A stretch of 56,285 nt of DNA from Candidatus Pollutiaquabacter sp. (GCA_947465495.1 CANIAS010000011.1:1-56285), one strand, 5' to 3'; positions 24,756-33,176 are shown, numbered from the stretch's first letter. Translations and numbers: made by a program. The notes: generated by a model not told the origin, from the letters alone.

Positions 24756-25283
24756 ATGGCAATAAAAAGAGCGTTCTCTTTCAAGAACTGGATTGATGAA
24801 AACCGTCATCTCCTGAAGCCTCCAATCGGCAATCAAGTTGTTTATCAGCCAGACCAGGATTTTATCGTTATGGTTGTTGGTGGACCGAACTCGCGCAAGG
24901 ACTATCATTACAACGAGACGGAAGAGTTTTATTATCAGCTGGAAGGCGACATTGTCGTAAAAATAATGGAAGACGGCCAGCCAGTCGACATCCATGTTAA
25001 AGAAGGAGAAATTTTTCTATTGCCGGCCAAAGTCCCTCATTCTCCACAACGTCGACCGAATACAATTGGTTTAGTCATGGAGGTCCAGCGCCGCGAAGGC
25101 ATGAAAGATGGATTAATGTGGTTCTGTGAAAAATGCAATCACAAGTTGCACGAGCAGTTTTTTGATTTGAAAGACATTGTTGTGCAACTTGCTTCAGCGA
25201 CTACGGCTTTCTATCAGAATATGGAGCTGTGTACTTGTAAGAATTGCGGACACGTCATGGATCCGCCACAACAGTTAACCTGA
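24756..25283 (+). CDS. nbaC: 3-hydroxyanthranilate 3,4-dioxygenase
   Basis: This Fe(II) enzyme opens the ring of 3-hydroxyanthranilate with O2 to give 2-amino-3-carboxymuconate semialdehyde (ACMS). The 175 residues form a cupin with all known site residues visible. The iron ligands are His51, Glu57 (YHYNETEEFYYQ) and His95 (VPHSP). The substrate-binding arginines are Arg47 and Arg99. The C-terminal rubredoxin-like iron site has two CxxC pairs (CEKC at 124-127 and CKNC at 161-164), a feature of bacterial rather than animal enzymes. It is followed 25 bases later by the TMTC-like gene, and the next enzyme (ACMSD) closes the operon. Confidence 0.96.
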   Translation: MAIKRAFSFKNWIDENRHLLKPPIGNQVVYQPDQDFIVMVVGGPNSRKDYHYNETEEFYYQLEGDIVVKIMEDGQPVDIHVKEGEIFLLPAKVPHSPQRRPNTIGLVMEVQRREGMKDGLMWFCEKCNHKLHEQFFDLKDIVVQLASATTAFYQNMELCTCKNCGHVMDPPQQLT

Positions 25284-25308
25284 ACCACTACGTTTAAAGA
25301 GTCGTACT

Positions 25309-27324
25309 GTGAATAAAAAATTAACCAAGAAAGAGAAGCACGCAACACAACCGCAGGGGCCTTCTCAGAAGCAATTGGCCGCTCAGGAGCAAGGCGCACG
25401 TCGTTTGCGAAGAACACTCGCCGTTATCGTTGCGGTGGTCGGCATGCTCGTGTATGCAAATACTATAGGACATGATTACGTCCTCGATGATTGGGGATTA
25501 ATTCCCGAGAACAAGTTGACTCGAAAAGGCATCGAAGGAATTGGAGAAATCTTTAAGACCAGTTATCGTACTGGAATGGATGTTTCCGATAATACCATTT
25601 ATCGCCCTTTATCGAAAGCTACGTTTGCCATCGATTGGCAATTAGCACCTAACCAGCCATCCATTGGCCATGTGGGCAACATTCTTTTTTTCGGTCTGCT
25701 TTGCTATTCTATTTTTCTCTTGTTGGTGCGGTTTTTCAAAGGGCAATTACTAGTTCCGTTCTTAACTGTTTTGCTGTTTGCTGTTCATCCATTACACACG
25801 GAAGTAGTAGCCAATATCAAAAGTCGTGATGAGATACTGGCGTTGCTCTTTCTGGTAGTCGGGAGTATGGCGGCAATCAGTTATGCTGAAACGGGAAAGA
25901 GCAAGTCTTTGCTTTCACTGGCAGGTTGTTTTTTCCTGGCGATGCTCTCCAAGGAATCATCCATTACTTGGGTAGCCATTGTTCCATTGGCACTCTATTT
26001 TTTCCGTGATCAACCTTTGAAAAAACTTTGGCCGGTTATTGGTGCATGCGTGGTTCCGTCGTTGCTATTTATTCTGATTCGCCGTAATATTCTTGGTCCC
26101 AGCGAAGCATCCATTCCTATGCTTGATAATTACCTCGCCGGCATCACTAATTTCTTGACCCAGCGCACATCTGCTATCGCCATTCTTGGATTGTATTTTT
26201 ATAAATTATTTGTGCCACATCCATTGGTATCCGATGGTTCCTTTCATCATTTCCCGGAGTATCCATTGACGGATTGGCATTTCTTGTTATCATTTGTCAT
26301 TTTTGCAGCGATGGTGCTTTTTGCAGCCTTTCGTTTCAAGAAAAAAGATCCGATATCATTTTCCATTCTTTACTTTTTCATCACCATTTCAATTACCTCT
26401 AACATAGTTATGCTGATTGGTACCAATTATGCAGAACGCTTGTTATTTACTCCTTCACTGGGCTGGTGTTTGGCAATGGCCTTGCTGATTTCAAAACCAT
26501 TTACTTCAGATAATACGTCTACTTCCTCGCTTTCTTTGTCCAGTTTTTTTCAAAAAAACATGCGACCATTGGCAGTGGTGATAGTGATCGTATTGGCATT
26601 CTCCGGATTGTCAGTGGCTCGCAACCGCGACTGGAAAAACAACTATACGTTATATACCCAAGATCTTACCAAAGTTCCAGAGAGCGCCCACATGCGTTTT
26701 TATTTAGCAAATCATATTTCTTCGGAAGAGTATTTGGCAGAACATCCGGACTCTTTGCAAAAGGTAAAACTTCAACTCGAAGCCATTGCTCAATTAGACA
26801 CCTCCATTTCCATTTATCCTGAGTATTCCGAGGCTTATCAGCGTAAGGCGTTCATCTATTTTTCGATGAAGAATTACGCAGCCGCTGAACCAGCTTTTCA
26901 AAAATCGTTGGATTTGAATCCGTCAGAAGCAGTAGCTCATAATAATTACGGCAACCTATTATTCGAAACGATGCGATACGAAGACGCACGCAAGCAATTC
27001 GAACAAGCGGTGCGATACAATCCAAGATATGCGCACGCCCTGAATAATCTCGCGAGCATTTATGGAGTTTTCGGCGAAGGAGAAAAACAAGCTGCACAGC
27101 AAGATCCGGCAAATCGCGCTATGCACCTGGCTAATGCCAAGTCGAACTACGAGACGGCTCTCATTTATTTTGGCAAGGCAATCAAAGAAGACCCTGAATA
27201 TGCGATGCCGTATCAACTGATGGCCGTGACGTACAGGAATCTTGGCGACGAACAAACCGCCAATACCTACATGGCAAAAGCTGAGGAAGTAAAAAAGATA
27301 AAACGTTATAATGCTAGTAATTGA
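25309..27324 (+). CDS. TMTC-like membrane protein with C-terminal TPR repeats
   Basis: This 671-residue protein has a basic N-terminus, about ten membrane segments up to residue 435, and at least three tetratricopeptide repeats from about residue 490 ([29 protein letters not shown] and onward). The acidic loop motif [11 protein letters not shown] after the first membrane segment resembles GT-C glycosyltransferases of the TMTC/DUF1736 type, which put mannose on exported proteins in animals. The start is a GTG 25 bases after the dioxygenase stop. The 3' end overlaps the ACMSD gene by 14 bases, so its translation is likely coupled to a catabolic enzyme. A protein O-glycosyltransferase is possible but inferred. 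Confidence 0.8.
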
Positions 27325-28321
27325 TATCCATACACACATTCTGCCGGAAAAACTACCGGACTTTAAATCCAAGTTCGGGTACGGCGGATTTGTATCGTTG
27401 GACCATCATAAACCATGTTGTTCCCGGATGATGATCGACGGAAAATTTTTCCGCGAGATTCAGGATAATTGCTGGGACCCCACAACGCGCATGAAGGAAT
27501 GCGACCACCATGGAGTCCATGTACAGGTGCTTTCAACGATTCCTGTGATGTTTAGTTATTGGGCTCAGCCGCAGGACGCATTGGATGTATCCATGTATCT
27601 CAATGATCATTTAGCGGGAATTATTAATCGGTATCCGGATCGTTTTATCGGTCTTGGAACGGTTCCATTGCAACATCCGGAATTGGCAATTAAAGAATTG
27701 GAACGTTGTATGAAAATGGGTCTGAGAGGAGTACAGATCGGTTCTCATGTAAATGATTGGAATCTGAATGAGCCGGCTTTGTTCCCATTTTTTGAAGCGG
27801 CTGCGGAAATGGGCGCTTCCATATTTGTGCATCCATGGGATATGATGGGCAAAGAGAAAATGAATAAATACTGGCTACCCTGGTTGGTCGGAATGCCCGC
27901 CGAAACTTCGTTGGCTATCTGCTCCATGATTTTCGGTGGAATTTTTGAGCGACTTCCTGCTTTACGAGTTGCATTTGCTCATGGCGGAGGATCATTTCCT
28001 GCCACATTCGGACGCATTGAACACGGTTATCGCGTACGTCCGGACTTGGTTGCCATCGATAACAAGGAAGATCCGAGAAAGTATTTAAAACAGTTTTACC
28101 TTGATTCATTGGTGCACGATCCTGTCATGCTGGATTACCTGGTCAAATTCATGGGACCAGAGCGGATTGCACTTGGTACCGATTATCCTTTTCCACTCGG
28201 TGAATTATCACCAGGTAAGCTGATCAAAGAGATGCCCTATGACAATCAATTAAAAGAACGCTTATTGTCTGGTACTGCTTTGGAGTGGTTGGGATTAAAT
28301 CGATCTGACTTTATCAGCTGA
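27311..28321 (+). CDS. 2-amino-3-carboxymuconate-6-semialdehyde decarboxylase (ACMSD)
   Basis: This zinc-dependent amidohydrolase-fold enzyme decarboxylates ACMS to 2-aminomuconate semialdehyde, so less ACMS closes on its own to quinolinate. The 336 residues hold the metal ligands His7 and His9 ([10 protein letters not shown]), a His in [10 protein letters not shown], a His in [10 protein letters not shown] and the Asp in [11 protein letters not shown]. Arg48 (KFFREI) fits the substrate Arg of known ACMSDs. The length matches bacterial ACMSD. It starts inside the end of the TMTC-like gene and is followed by a bidirectional terminator. Confidence 0.93.
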
Positions 28322-28407: not shown

Positions 28408-29328
28408 TCACCATCCTTCGCCTGATTTTGCTTTTTCGGCAGGCACTGTAAATACACGACTGATGTTGAAGCCGAGGTGGATGCCACCTTTTGACCAACT
28501 ATCCCTGGTATACACTAAAAACTGATTCTCTGCGATGCCAAAGGAATTGGTGAGTTGTATTTGGAAAACGTGTCCACCGGTTTCTAATTCATAGCCGATA
28601 CTGAAGCTATCGTAATATTTCGAGTCTGGTGAGTAGTTGTTGTCATACCGATAGGCATATTCCAACGTGATGGCGGAACGTTTTGTGAATTTGATGCGTG
28701 TTGCTGCGCTGATTCCATACATGTCGTTCTTGTCCGTGATGTTGTCAACGAGGTTATAGTGTACAAAGAATGGAGCGATTTGGAGGGAGAAGGAAGGACT
28801 GAATTTTTTTCCGACGATGATTTGGTTTACATAGGAGTAACGATCGATATCGTTGGCATATTTATCAAAGCTCGATGCCGGAAGCCGAAGACCTGTGCGA
28901 TACGCTGACGTTAGAAGTGTCACACTCAACGGGGTGCTGTTATCCGTGGTTTGTCGGATCAGACGAAACTTTATAAATCCATCAACCATTTTATCAAGTG
29001 AACTTCGGCCGATACCAAACATCAACCGTCCGTCCCAGCTGTAATCAAGTCCAAGGCGAATGTTAGCTGGACCATCAATACCCCATGCGTCGTATGCGCC
29101 TTGATTCAATGTGCCAAAGCGGTGAGAGATACGAAAGTCGAGGGTTTTAGGACCCAAGCTTTCAATGGTTTGAAGATTGATGAGGCGAGTTGATTTGAAA
29201 GTAGCCCGAGCGAAATCTTTTTTTGTTTCCGTATCTGTTGTAGAAAGACTTCCCAGAAGATCTTGCGCAAAAACATGGTTAGAGCACAATAGTGAAAATA
29301 GAGCAAGTTGTAGAATACGTTGTTTCAT
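28408..29328 (-). CDS. Outer-membrane beta-barrel protein, DUF5777 family
   Basis: This 306-residue protein has a signal peptide (ending NHVFAQD). The mature part is full of alternating amphipathic strands ending in aromatic residues (LDFRISHRFGTL, IRLGLDYSWDGRLMFGIGRS, ITLEYAYRYDNNYSP, VFQIQLTNSFGI), which points to an outer-membrane barrel of roughly 10-12 strands. The pattern matches DUF5777, whose function is unknown. It is the last gene of a minus-strand run with two heme-type lipoproteins, whose stop lies only 3 bases from its start, so cotranslation is likely. A channel or porin partner for those cytochrome-like proteins is a reasonable inference. Confidence 0.75.
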   Translation of the reverse strand: MKQRILQLALFSLLCSNHVFAQDLLGSLSTTDTETKKDFARATFKSTRLINLQTIESLGPKTLDFRISHRFGTLNQGAYDAWGIDGPANIRLGLDYSWDGRLMFGIGRSSLDKMVDGFIKFRLIRQTTDNSTPLSVTLLTSAYRTGLRLPASSFDKYANDIDRYSYVNQIIVGKKFSPSFSLQIAPFFVHYNLVDNITDKNDMYGISAATRIKFTKRSAITLEYAYRYDNNYSPDSKYYDSFSIGYELETGGHVFQIQLTNSFGIAENQFLVYTRDSWSKGGIHLGFNISRVFTVPAEKAKSGEGW

Positions 29329-29331
29329 CGG

Positions 29332-29748
29332 TTAGTTATTTTGTTGTCCTTGGTCAATCCACTTTTGGATTTTCACGATACTACATACTTCTATTTTTTC
29401 TGTTACGCCTTTTGGCATCCATTTGGAACTTGCAAGAGCAGGATCGTGGTTGATACGTTGCATGAAATCAATTGGACCACGATCCGAAATGGTTTCAATG
29501 GTGCCGTTGTAATCGGCCAAACTTCCATTTCCACCATTAGAAAGCGAATTGTCTGAATTGTGACAAGCGGCATCACCGGAACCACAACGTGATGTAAAGA
29601 TAGGTTGTATTTGACTCGAGAATAAAATAGTTCCGGTAGAGTCGCAAGGCTCGGGGCCATTTGCTGCACTTAATTCTTCAGCATTATCGTAGTAACAACC
29701 GGTAATGATTAACGATGCGAATAGCATCACGTATAATATCTTTTTCAT
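29332..29748 (-). CDS. Monoheme c-type cytochrome-like lipoprotein with CX6CH motif
   Basis: This 138-residue lipoprotein has the lipobox LIITGC at residues 13-18. The mature domain has the pattern of small class I cytochromes in Bacteroidota: QIQPIFTSRC...ACHNS at the heme site, DYNGTI, a distal Met in KWMPKG (candidate sixth ligand), and the closing helix IQKWIDQG. The heme motif is unusual: CGSGDAACH puts six residues between the cysteines instead of two. Two further Cys (in PEPCDSTG and EVCSIV) could form a disulfide. It lies between the DUF5777 barrel (3 bases) and a sister lipoprotein (5 bases). Covalent heme is inferred. Confidence 0.72.
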   Translation of the reverse strand: MKKILYVMLFASLIITGCYYDNAEELSAANGPEPCDSTGTILFSSQIQPIFTSRCGSGDAACHNSDNSLSNGGNGSLADYNGTIETISDRGPIDFMQRINHDPALASSKWMPKGVTEKIEVCSIVKIQKWIDQGQQNN

Positions 29749-29753
29749 AATTA

Positions 29754-30152
29754 TTAATTGTTTTTAGCACCTTGCTCTATCCATATATAAATTTTCTGAA
29801 TGTCTTCAGTTGCCAACCATCCGTTAGGGGGCATCGGATTGTCATTTCGGTTCGTGATACAACGGTAAAGTTTACTACGGTGCGCATTGCCAGCAACTAT
29901 TTCTCCATAGTCCATCACATCGTTGTAGGTGGTCAGTGACTCCGAATCATCATCATCATCATCATCATGATTACCGCCACTGTTATCATCGTTATGACAA
30001 CCGCTCATGGTACAGTTAGATCCAAGAATAGGTTGAATGTCCCGTTGAAAACTTACTTCTGGAGTGGCCGACAAATCAGGATCTGTATGACATCCAATCA
30101 CCAGTATCGAGATGATGACGCCGACGAACAAAAAGGAAACTACTTTTACCAT
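29754..30152 (-). CDS. Monoheme c-type cytochrome-like lipoprotein with CX4CH motif and Asp tract
   Basis: This 132-residue lipoprotein (lipobox ILVIGC near residues 16-21) is related to its neighbour. It reads FQRDIQPILGSNC, then the heme site NCTMSGCHND (CX4CH), and a distal Met in NPMPPNG. It closes with IYIWIEQGAKNN. A strongly acidic insert, seven Asp encoded by seven tandem GAT codons, follows the heme motif. CX4CH is known from some multiheme cytochromes but is unusual in monoheme proteins. It is likely anchored in the outer membrane and exchanges electrons with the neighbouring proteins; this is inferred from context. Confidence 0.72.
   Translation of the reverse strand: MVKVVSFLFVGVIISILVIGCHTDPDLSATPEVSFQRDIQPILGSNCTMSGCHNDDNSGGNHDDDDDDDSESLTTYNDVMDYGEIVAGNAHRSKLYRCITNRNDNPMPPNGWLATEDIQKIYIWIEQGAKNN
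29946..29966. repeat. Trinucleotide microsatellite (ATC)7
   Basis: Seven tandem ATC units (GAT on the coding strand) encode the Asp run of the CX4CH lipoprotein. Slippage would change the Asp number without breaking the frame. Confidence 0.8.
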
Positions 30153-30166
30153 AAAAAGAGCGTGTT

Positions 30167-30193
30167 AAAAAAAGCGGCTCGAGGCCGCTTTTT
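30167..30193. terminator. Terminator between the T9SS heme protein and the lipoprotein genes
   Basis: AAAGCGGC (30171-30178) and GCCGCTTT (30184-30191) pair around a 5-base loop. On the minus strand the stem is followed by a run of T, 13 bases after the stop of the gene at 30204. The two halves of the cluster may thus be transcribed at different levels. Confidence 0.8.
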
Positions 30194-30203
30194 AGAATGA
30201 ACA

Positions 30204-31049
30204 TTATTGTAATACAATTCGTTTGACGTTATTTTTAGAACCGGTCTGTACGTTTACCAAATAGGTGCCTTTGGAAAATTGAGACAAACCAGTCCAACGA
30301 ATCGATTGCTCGTTGCCTGATACTACTGAAATTGTTTCGGAACGGACGACTTTACCAGTAAGGTCAAATAGTTGAACAAGCGCGTTACCCGTAACAGCAG
30401 AAGTTAGTTCGATGGTAGCCTCGTCGTTTACGAGGCTTGGGAATACGGAGAACGAGGTGTTTTGATCTGGCGAGGAAATGCCAGTGGTGTTCATTTCAGT
30501 TAGTACGGTGCTACCTTGATAAACATAGTCGCTGCTTTCGTTGCCATTTCCGTTGGCGGCTACTCCACAATAGTAGAAAGTTACATTTCCTGTTCCTGCA
30601 GCAGGTGCAGTCCAGTTAAATACGAACGCTTTTGAGTTAGCACTTGCGCCGCCATTTAATTGGTGAACGACACTGGTGCGGGAATTTCCAGAAACGGTTA
30701 CTGATTTTAGGCGAGTTGATGCAGCGTCGGTAATGATTAAAGATCCGGCATTGGCATTGGAGGAATTCAGGGCCTCAACACCTAATCCAAAAAGGCTATT
30801 GCCGGTACGACTAACGGTAAAGGTCATATTATATGTGGTGCCTGGAACATATTCATTGTTGGTGGTGCCTGTATTAAGGGAGATGGTACCACCACCGCTA
30901 TTTAAAGCAAATGAATTATGACAATTGGTGCAGTTGGTTTCACCGGGCGAACCAGTACGTCCTGCTATACCATTATCACTCATAATTTCACTAGTTAATC
31001 CGATGAATACGGCACCGGACAAAAAGGATACAAGTAGTAGTTTTTTCAT
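30204..31049 (-). CDS. T9SS-exported protein with CXXCH motif and choice-of-anchor V (Reeler-like) domain
   Basis: This 281-residue exported protein has a signal peptide (residues 1-20) and then GSPGETNCTNCHNSF, a standard CXXCH heme site near residue 40. A beta-rich domain of the choice-of-anchor V/Reeler type covers about 50-185 (YNMTFTVSRTGNSLFGLGVEAL and FNWTAPAAGTGNVTFYYCGVA). The last 80 residues (SVFPSLVNDEATIEL to VKRIVLQ) are a T9SS sorting domain, so it should reach the cell surface. It is the first gene of the minus-strand run with two cytochrome-like lipoproteins and a barrel. Whether the CXXCH binds heme is not proven. Confidence 0.8.
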   Translation of the reverse strand: MKKLLLVSFLSGAVFIGLTSEIMSDNGIAGRTGSPGETNCTNCHNSFALNSGGGTISLNTGTTNNEYVPGTTYNMTFTVSRTGNSLFGLGVEALNSSNANAGSLIITDAASTRLKSVTVSGNSRTSVVHQLNGGASANSKAFVFNWTAPAAGTGNVTFYYCGVAANGNGNESSDYVYQGSTVLTEMNTTGISSPDQNTSFSVFPSLVNDEATIELTSAVTGNALVQLFDLTGKVVRSETISVVSGNEQSIRWTGLSQFSKGTYLVNVQTGSKNNVKRIVLQ

Positions 31050-31221: not shown

Positions 31222-31899
31222 ATGAAAATCTTGATTGTAGAAGATGAGCGTGATTTACTGGATTCGATAGACAATTACTTGTCGGGTATCGGAATGAGTT
31301 GTACAAAAGCGATCAATGTTGAACAAGCGCTTGATTGTTTGGTGAAGGAGGACTTTGATTGCATTTTGCTGGATATTGGATTACCGGACGGCAGCGGATT
31401 CAACGTGATTGAGGCGATGCAACAAAAAGAACATAAGACAGGCATCGTGATTATTTCGGCTAGAAATTCGTTAGACGATCGCTTGACCGGACTCAACATT
31501 GGAGCTGATGATTACGTCACCAAACCCTTTCACATGTCGGAGCTGATAGCTCGCATTAAATCTGTAGCCCGAAGACGTTCTTCTCAAGATCGTAAGGCCA
31601 TCGTGTTTCATGAATTGAAATTGATTCCCGATGAGATGGTCATGTATGTGGGCGAGAAGATGCTCACCATGACCAAGAAAGAACACGAGCTGATGATTTA
31701 TCTTATTAGCAATCCTAATCGTGTCCTCACACGCGAGGCCATCGCAGAGCACTTATGGGGAGATCATGCTGAAATGGCCGATTCCTTTGATTTCATATAC
31801 AGTCATATCAAGAATCTCCGCAAAAAGATTGTGGACAATGGTGGTAAGGATTATATCAAATCTGTTTATGGCGTAGGCTATAAGTTTGCTGCAGAATGA
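31222..31899 (+). CDS. OmpR-family response regulator
   Basis: This 225-residue two-domain regulator has a receiver domain (residues 1-115) with the acidic pair Glu7-Asp8, the phospho-acceptor Asp51 (CILLDIGLPDG) and the Lys in DDYVTKPF. The C-terminal winged helix of OmpR type spans about 128-222 (LTMTKKEHELMIYL, LTREAIAEHLWG, IYSHIKNLRKKI, VYGVGYKF). I chose the ATG at 31222, directly before KILIVEDE; an upstream TTG would overlap the -7 element. It overlaps the kinase gene by 4 bases (ATGA), so the two are a coupled pair. Target genes are unknown. Confidence 0.95.
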   Translation: MKILIVEDERDLLDSIDNYLSGIGMSCTKAINVEQALDCLVKEDFDCILLDIGLPDGSGFNVIEAMQQKEHKTGIVIISARNSLDDRLTGLNIGADDYVTKPFHMSELIARIKSVARRRSSQDRKAIVFHELKLIPDEMVMYVGEKMLTMTKKEHELMIYLISNPNRVLTREAIAEHLWGDHAEMADSFDFIYSHIKNLRKKIVDNGGKDYIKSVYGVGYKFAAE

Positions 31900-33176
31900 A
31901 GCTGTTGAATGCCACCAATCGATTCTACATCATTGTAGCACTTGCGCTACTACTGGTAAGTAGTGTTTTTTTGGTATATCGCGTCGTCTATGTGATTGAC
32001 ATGCAGATTACGGAGCACATGCTTTTCAAGAAATTACAAATTGAAAAGCAAATTGCAAGTCAGCCGGAATTACAACGACGCTCATTTTACATCAGTGATT
32101 TAATTAGGGTTGATACCATCTCTAAATTCACCACTTTCAAGGTTCAGATCAAGGATACGCTGATGTATGGGGAGTTGGAGGAGGCTGAGATTCCATACCG
32201 TGTAATGACCTACGAGCAGGAAATTCTTGGGGACGCCTACCGGATTAGTATAAGTCAACGTTTGACGCAGAACCGTGATTTGGTCAGTGGTATCGCTATC
32301 ACTTTTTTATTGGTCGCCATTGATATCATCGCGTGTTTTTATTTTCTTAATCGTTATTTCTCCTCCACTATTTGGCGTCCATTTTATCGAGCGTTGGATA
32401 CCTTGAAAAGATTTGATTTGCAGCGTGGAGGAAGAGTTCGTTTTGAGCCGACGGAAATAAATGAATTCAATGCCCTTAATGAGGAGTTGGTTAAATTAAC
32501 AGATAAAGTAAGTAGTGATTACCGCAATTTAAAGGAGTTTACGGAGAACATGTCACATGAAACCCAAACTCCTCTTGCAATTATTCGCTCTAAGTTGGAG
32601 ATTTTGCTGCAAGCAGATAATCTTAGCCCAGAACAGCTGGAGCAAATTCGGTCGACACTTGATGCGATCAATCGTCTGACAAAGATGAACCGTGGATTGA
32701 TTATGTTGACCAGGATCGATAACGAACAGTTTTCCGACGAAGAAGACATTCGTTTTTCCGAATTAGTGCAACGCCGTTTAGTCGATCTGGAATTGTTCAT
32801 CCAATCGCGCGAACTACATGTGGAAACCGAACTTAATAATGAGCTGGTTGTTCGAATGAATCCTCATTTGGCAGACATCTTGGTCAGCAATTTGTTATCG
32901 AATGCCATTAAATACAACATATCCGGCGGAAGATTGGAGGTTTCGGTGTTTAGCGACGCTATTTCCATTTCAAATTCCGGGAAAGCATTGACGTTTTCGG
33001 ACCAGAAGATTTTCGAACGATTCAAACGGGGCGACGCGGTGGATTCTATTGGCTTGGGGCTTGCCATTGTAAAACGCATCTGCGATCATTATCATTACTT
33101 TTTGTCGTATCAATACCAGGATGACCTGCATCGATTTTACATTCAATTCACGAAAGAACGGCGAAATATCACCTGA
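31896..33176 (+). CDS. Sensor histidine kinase, partner of the adjacent response regulator
   Basis: This 426-residue inner-membrane kinase has membrane segments near residues 11-30 and 130-152, flanking a sensor loop of about 100 residues. It then has a dimerization/phospho-acceptor helix with His in ENMSHETQTPLAIIRSKLE (near residue 221) and the N box NLLSNAIKYN. The usual DxGxG of the ATP lid is altered to SNSGKAL. The G2 box GLGLAIVKRICDHY is present. No clear HAMP domain is seen. The altered lid is common in Bacteroidota kinases and need not abolish activity. The signal sensed is not visible. Confidence 0.93.
   Translation: MKLLNATNRFYIIVALALLLVSSVFLVYRVVYVIDMQITEHMLFKKLQIEKQIASQPELQRRSFYISDLIRVDTISKFTTFKVQIKDTLMYGELEEAEIPYRVMTYEQEILGDAYRISISQRLTQNRDLVSGIAITFLLVAIDIIACFYFLNRYFSSTIWRPFYRALDTLKRFDLQRGGRVRFEPTEINEFNALNEELVKLTDKVSSDYRNLKEFTENMSHETQTPLAIIRSKLEILLQADNLSPEQLEQIRSTLDAINRLTKMNRGLIMLTRIDNEQFSDEEDIRFSELVQRRLVDLELFIQSRELHVETELNNELVVRMNPHLADILVSNLLSNAIKYNISGGRLEVSVFSDAISISNSGKALTFSDQKIFERFKRGDAVDSIGLGLAIVKRICDHYHYFLSYQYQDDLHRFYIQFTKERRNIT

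Follow-up and report, generated by a model that had tools for sequence, protein, structure and literature searches.

Does the locus at 28408-31049 encode a route for electrons between the periplasm and the cell surface? The window, a stretch of 56,285 nucleotides from Candidatus Pollutiaquabacter sp., has four genes there. A reading made from the sequence alone proposed that they form a surface electron-transfer module consisting of an outer-membrane barrel, two lipoproteins with cytochrome-like heme sites and a CXXCH protein exported by the T9SS. All four open reading frames are present on the minus strand, as that reading had it (Table 1). The locus is one version of an apparently undescribed, Bacteroidota-wide module in which a small outer-membrane channel is combined with single-heme electron carriers. 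Since the channel is paired with such carriers, the module probably moves electrons at the outer membrane.

Table 1. Features of the locus and their positions in the window.
Feature	Position	Strand	Description
T9SS protein gene	30204..31049	-	N-terminal choice-of-anchor V domain, CTNCH at residues 40-44; predicted type A sorting tail
Hairpin	30169..30193	-	10 bp, then T-run; probable intrinsic terminator just 3' of the T9SS gene
Lipoprotein 1	29754..30152	-	cytochrome c-like, predicted monoheme, site CTMSGCH (CX4CH); HTDPD after the lipobox Cys
Lipoprotein 2	29332..29748	-	cytochrome c-like, predicted monoheme, site CGSGDAACH (CX6CH); distal Met111-Pro112; YYDNAEE after the lipobox Cys18
DUF5777 outer-membrane beta-barrel	28408..29328	-	PF19089; 12 predicted strands
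OmpR-type response regulator and PorY-family histidine kinase	31222..33176	+	divergent; candidate regulator; NF052314

The genes are ordered 5' to 3' as T9SS protein, lipoprotein 1, lipoprotein 2 and barrel. They are separated by 51, 5 and 3 bases, and the last two spacings agree with the 3-5 bases first noticed between the lipoprotein and barrel genes. The hairpin at 30193-30169 lies within the 51-base gap between the T9SS gene and lipoprotein 1 (-13.5 kcal/mol, z -3.69, equalled by 0 of 200 shuffles). A simple terminator consensus scan did not list it, probably because the T-run forms part of the stem. With a T-run hairpin at this position, the likely unit is three genes and a neighbour rather than four genes. 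The two lipoproteins and the barrel are probably expressed as one transcript, and the T9SS gene probably belongs to a separate unit.

The T9SS heme gene is adjoined by a divergent pair, a PorY-family kinase and an OmpR-type regulator, which is a candidate regulator of the module. The kinase matched NF052314 with 431 bits (cut-off 350), and the adjacency is kept in several members of the family (L062, L065, L066, L070, L081, L082). Downstream, 24756-28321 encodes a 3-hydroxyanthranilate dioxygenase and, with it, a membrane protein with TPR repeats and an enzyme of the Amidohydro_2 family that we read as ACMSD-like. These are probably kynurenine-pathway genes, and they are kept beside the module in relatives.

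Each lipoprotein has one CXnCH motif with an MP motif downstream. Searched singly against Pfam, neither passed a cytochrome cut-off; lipoprotein 1 gave weak matches to PSCyt1/CBB3, and a single-sequence search of the PDB with lipoprotein 2 returned a chance match only, so that a family profile was needed. An iterated profile search of the fetched loci placed both in one family of 118 proteins. When 92 homologues were aligned, the mean column identity was 24% and the only invariant columns were C55, C62, H63, M111, P112 and W130 (lipoprotein 2 numbering). These would be the Cys pair and the proximal His of the heme site, the Met-Pro on its distal side and, in the C-terminal helix, a Trp. The family profile matched cytochrome c6 (4.4e-6), FoxE (3.1e-5) and also hydrazine synthase alpha in the PDB, and 25 members matched the cbb3-type cytochrome family of Pfam. 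Given the invariant residues and the cytochrome c6 and FoxE matches, the assignment of a heme site with a distal Met, proposed at the outset for both lipoproteins, stands well above chance, and both proteins would be expected to bind heme. The AlphaFold model of lipoprotein 2, built without heme, is all helical (pLDDT 84.5). A Foldseek search with this CX6CH model gave no cytochrome c match; the predicted cytochrome fold therefore rests on sequence and not on structure comparison.

The linker of the putative heme site varies within the family. Outside the window's clade it is CX2CH at 115 sites, CX4CH at 91 and of other length at 5. Inside the clade, CX5CH or CX6CH accounts for 14/37 sites, chiefly those of the lipoprotein whose gene adjoins the barrel gene. 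These heme-type sites, kept within one clade of one cytochrome family, are unusual as candidates for heme attachment, and no paper using the names CX5CH or CX6CH was found in the open-licence PMC literature. The range from CX2CH to CX6CH in a single family is a natural test of the flexibility of heme attachment. ResB (PF05140) was not found in the window's genome; two Cytochrom_C_asm genes are present there. The cytochrome c maturation family PF01578 was tried as a phyletic control and discarded as useless, 295/297 genomes carrying it.

The barrel was correctly named as DUF5777. It matched PF19089 over positions 1-247 of the 247-position profile with 289.6 bits (gathering cut-off 23.1; E 2.2e-86). 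The AlphaFold model is confident (pLDDT 92.3, pTM 0.85) and has 12 strands. A profile search found no PDB relative of the barrel, and the Foldseek matches are generic channels, among them FapF, OmpG and the COG4313 channel. Face-alternation analysis placed several invariant charged residues (H69, R108, R291) on the predicted lipid side, near the strand ends. No mention of DUF5777 was found in open-licence PMC papers. A same-genus genome has a broken DUF5777 copy (L078, G297 C1:197204-197929) that matches the profile in four fragments, one of them interrupted by a TGA.

DUF5777 is present in 116/297 Bacteroidota genomes and in 41/41 near relatives. A contig scan with the single barrel sequence gave no matches; an alignment-based scan recovered the loci. 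Neighbourhoods were compared in 79 loci from the Bacteroidota genome searches and 78 from a named genome collection; the two sets overlap partly (L062 and L181 are the same locus) and are therefore not fully independent. A redox protein, that is, a cytochrome of the family, a Rieske protein, EB_dh or a fusion, lies in the same-strand run of DUF5777 in 68/79 and 63/78 loci, a family cytochrome in 63/79 and 56/78, and YceI in 55/79 and 59/78, these counts being of related genomes and not of independent events. Loci lacking a redox neighbour number 11/79 and 15/78. The 360 control genes, from 20-kb stretches of the same genomes, included one YceI and zero redox or other module-family members. DUF5777 can have an alternative partner, a Rieske protein in 16 loci and EB_dh in 2. 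The module genes commonly follow the order cytochrome(s), an OB-fold protein (PF12869), YceI and DUF5777, with median gaps that are for the most part 5-20 bases.

The exact four-gene order recurs in a part of the window's own family only. The order T9SS-cytochrome-cytochrome-DUF5777 was found in G000, G298 (L081), G302 (L070) and G306 (L062/L181); G303 (L066) has it too, with a YceI gene added after the barrel. The DUF5777 of the window belongs to a clade of ten (support 0.99) inside a larger group of 23 (0.87), and the loci of this group mostly have two cytochromes and no YceI. In the window's genome an OB-YceI pair is sited elsewhere, at C2.

The abundance of YceI in the module runs is consistent with another function, antioxidant protection or quinone maintenance at the outer membrane. 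YceI would carry a quinone or isoprenoid, the cytochromes would recharge it and the barrel would handle lipid or quinone. There is a precedent in BcnA, a YceI protein that detoxifies lipid peroxyl radicals together with LcoA, a cytochrome b561, and the ligands of YceI proteins include ubiquinone-8 (PMC9113575). However, YceI is absent from the window locus and from most loci of its 23-member clade, which counts against this role as a general explanation. Neither a YceI gene nor a cytochrome b561 gene was identified adjacent to the window module, none of the latter was identified beside the module generally, and the OB-YceI pair of the genome lies apart from it. An antioxidant role is unlikely.

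Four loci of relatives (L306-L309) have a longer run that includes a second YceI, a 970-aa Reg_prop/Y_Y_Y sensor kinase and a LytTR regulator as well as a diheme (CX4CH + CX2CH) lipoprotein, a cytochrome, OB and YceI; DUF5777 is present in L307 and L309. RNA-seq of Riemerella under iron limitation listed one YceI gene and nothing on the DUF5777 module.

Three further arrangements bear on function. First, a single ORF of ~410 aa encodes a CX4CH cytochrome domain followed by DUF5777 in seven genomes (L129/L180, L171, L172, L173, L174, L175, L177), and the DUF5777 domains of the fusions group as one clade (7/7, support 0.75). An outer-membrane barrel with an even number of strands has both termini in the periplasm. 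Since the heme domain of the fusions is N-terminal, it would be expected at the mouth of the barrel that opens to the periplasm. Second, a cytochrome, DUF5777, a soluble cytochrome c, a 4Fe-4S protein and NrfD are encoded in one run in three genomes (L119/L310, L132, L135). The 4Fe-4S and NrfD partners are DsrO/DsrP-like, yet they score under the NCBIfam cut-offs. Third, four genomes of the window's family have module genes next to a cbb3 oxidase operon: G297, G302, G305 and that of the window itself, where the genes concerned are the OB-YceI pair at C2. One of the clusters with NrfD (L310 591-7000, in G086) also adjoins an apparent CRISPR array and Cas9/Cas1-sized genes.

The conserved neighbourhood and, above all, the independent contexts of the fusions and of the linkage to NrfD/FeS and cbb3 lead us to accept a redox function. 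To this extent the proposal of a surface electron-transfer module is strongly supported; the part that concerns transfer at the surface is doubtful. The same linkage, including that to Rieske proteins, points to an electron-transfer chain and argues against an ordinary uptake channel, in which the neighbouring heme proteins would be enzymes or sensors for the compound taken up, with no net respiratory electron transfer. The generic Foldseek matches of the barrel fit such a channel, as do the sensor kinases and LytTR regulators that adjoin some versions, but on the whole it is very improbable.

The explanation we prefer, to which we give about an even chance, is a monoheme redox module of the outer membrane that takes up its substrate via the barrel and exchanges electrons with the respiratory chain. 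Two outer-membrane-anchored monoheme cytochromes with His/Met ligands would work with the small 12-strand DUF5777 barrel. Most likely the barrel would let in a small redox substrate, whether a metal ion, a molecule resembling a quinone or some other small compound, for electron exchange with a heme located in or close to the barrel. From this heme the connection to the quinone pool and to the cbb3 oxidase would be made by the second cytochrome together with soluble carriers. The substrate and the direction of electron flow are what we infer, as is the physical complex, for gene neighbourhood by itself is no proof that cytochrome and barrel form one. If the module does move electrons there, a major phylum would have a cheap monoheme system of a kind overlooked by surveys for multiheme cytochromes.

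The fourth gene of the locus encodes, as was first suggested, a predicted T9SS-exported CXXCH protein. It has a choice_anch_V domain (97.5 bits, cut-off 42) containing the CTNCH motif, and its sorting tail scored above the cut-offs of both TIGR04183 (type A; 35.2 bits against 23) and PF18962 (36.3 against 27). Homologues were collected with a profile of the N-terminal domain, a first version having been contaminated by the T9SS tail. C40, C43 and H44 are invariant in the 13 anchor-V homologues, with spacing CX2-CX4CH; among these 13 there is no invariant Met and no invariant second His that could serve as second axial ligand. A T9SS gene lies in the module run in 12/157 loci, across two different arrangements. 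An anchor-V gene also occurs within the cytochrome-OB-YceI-DUF5777 form in other lineages (L092, L100, L200 and others), and the link to the module is therefore real but partial. The protein appears to be a surface accessory of some versions of the module.

Could the module nevertheless be a true extracellular conduit? Electrons would then pass from the periplasm through the barrel, via surface-facing lipoproteins, to the T9SS heme protein and on to an acceptor or donor outside. The genetic linkage and fusion of barrel and cytochrome favour such a path, and so does the fact that some members of the family encode a CXnCH protein of the surface (T9SS) beside the module. Cyc2 shows that iron can be oxidised with a single porin-fused heme (PMC8406198). 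The N-termini of the lipoproteins are also suggestive: 80% of the CYYD-type lipoproteins have at least two acidic residues after the lipid Cys compared with 27% of other predicted lipoproteins, a control set made noisy by a loose lipobox filter. The acidic stretch resembles the Bacteroidota surface-export signal, published as K-(D/E)2 or Q-A-(D/E)2 (PMC5080379), but it is not an exact match. Lipoproteins 1 and 2 have two acidic residues each in +2 to +7 and likewise depart from the exact published motif; the leaflet that they face is also inferred.

Other features weigh against a conduit. A barrel of 12 predicted strands would be narrow, a single heme does not reach across a membrane, and single hemes on opposite sides of it would be too distant for an electron relay. 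In the fusions the cytochrome would be expected to lie in the periplasm. Most loci lack the T9SS gene, which probably forms a unit of its own, and the CXXCH of its product lacks an invariant second ligand. Taken together, a conduit is doubtful. The same low expectation applies to its more specific form, a quinone-fed conduit of Bacteroidota's own that would combine single-heme lipoproteins, including those with CX5CH/CX6CH, with the 12-strand DUF5777 and in some cases a T9SS heme protein. If true, this conduit would have no relationship to the multiheme systems and would occur in a large part of the phylum.

Several known systems resemble parts of the module. The window lipoproteins share the CXnCH motif, the distal Met-Pro, the C-terminal helix and profile matches with FoxE and with the PSCyt1/cbb3-type (class I) cytochrome c domains, from which they differ by their CX4CH/CX6CH linkers, lipid anchor and barrel partner. 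In BcnA-LcoA, a YceI lipocalin with a cytochrome b561, the gene of a YceI-family lipocalin is likewise linked to a cytochrome (PMC9113575), whereas cytochrome c lipoproteins and a barrel replace the inner-membrane cytochrome b561 in the module. The TAT-type 4Fe-4S and NrfD proteins found with the cytochrome-DUF5777 run in three genomes recall the DsrMKJOP/Qrc-type quinone modules (DsrO, DsrP, QrcD), but they fall below the NCBIfam equivalog cut-offs and none lies next to the window module. MtrAB/MtrCAB and PioAB/MtoAB also have an outer-membrane barrel encoded together with partner cytochromes; the module is monoheme where these are deca-heme, has 12 strands instead of 26 and uses another barrel family.

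The sequence-only reading held that the known porin-cytochrome conduits use multiheme proteins. This was wrong, and the notion that conduits must be multiheme was rejected, since Cyc2 is a fused monoheme cytochrome-porin, into whose pore Fe2+ is thought to enter (PMC8406198). Cyc2 resembles the module in having one heme and an outer-membrane barrel, and in the seven relatives the cytochrome is fused N-terminally to the barrel. However, the Cyc2 porin has 16 strands and DUF5777 12 predicted strands; the cytochrome domain of the module is ~100 aa with CX4CH and a distal Met, and its barrel belongs to the Pfam family DUF5777. In the window the cytochromes are encoded as separate lipoprotein genes, and no link to iron is shown. 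With 12 predicted strands and separate genes, the module would work like Cyc2 without belonging to the Cyc2 family.
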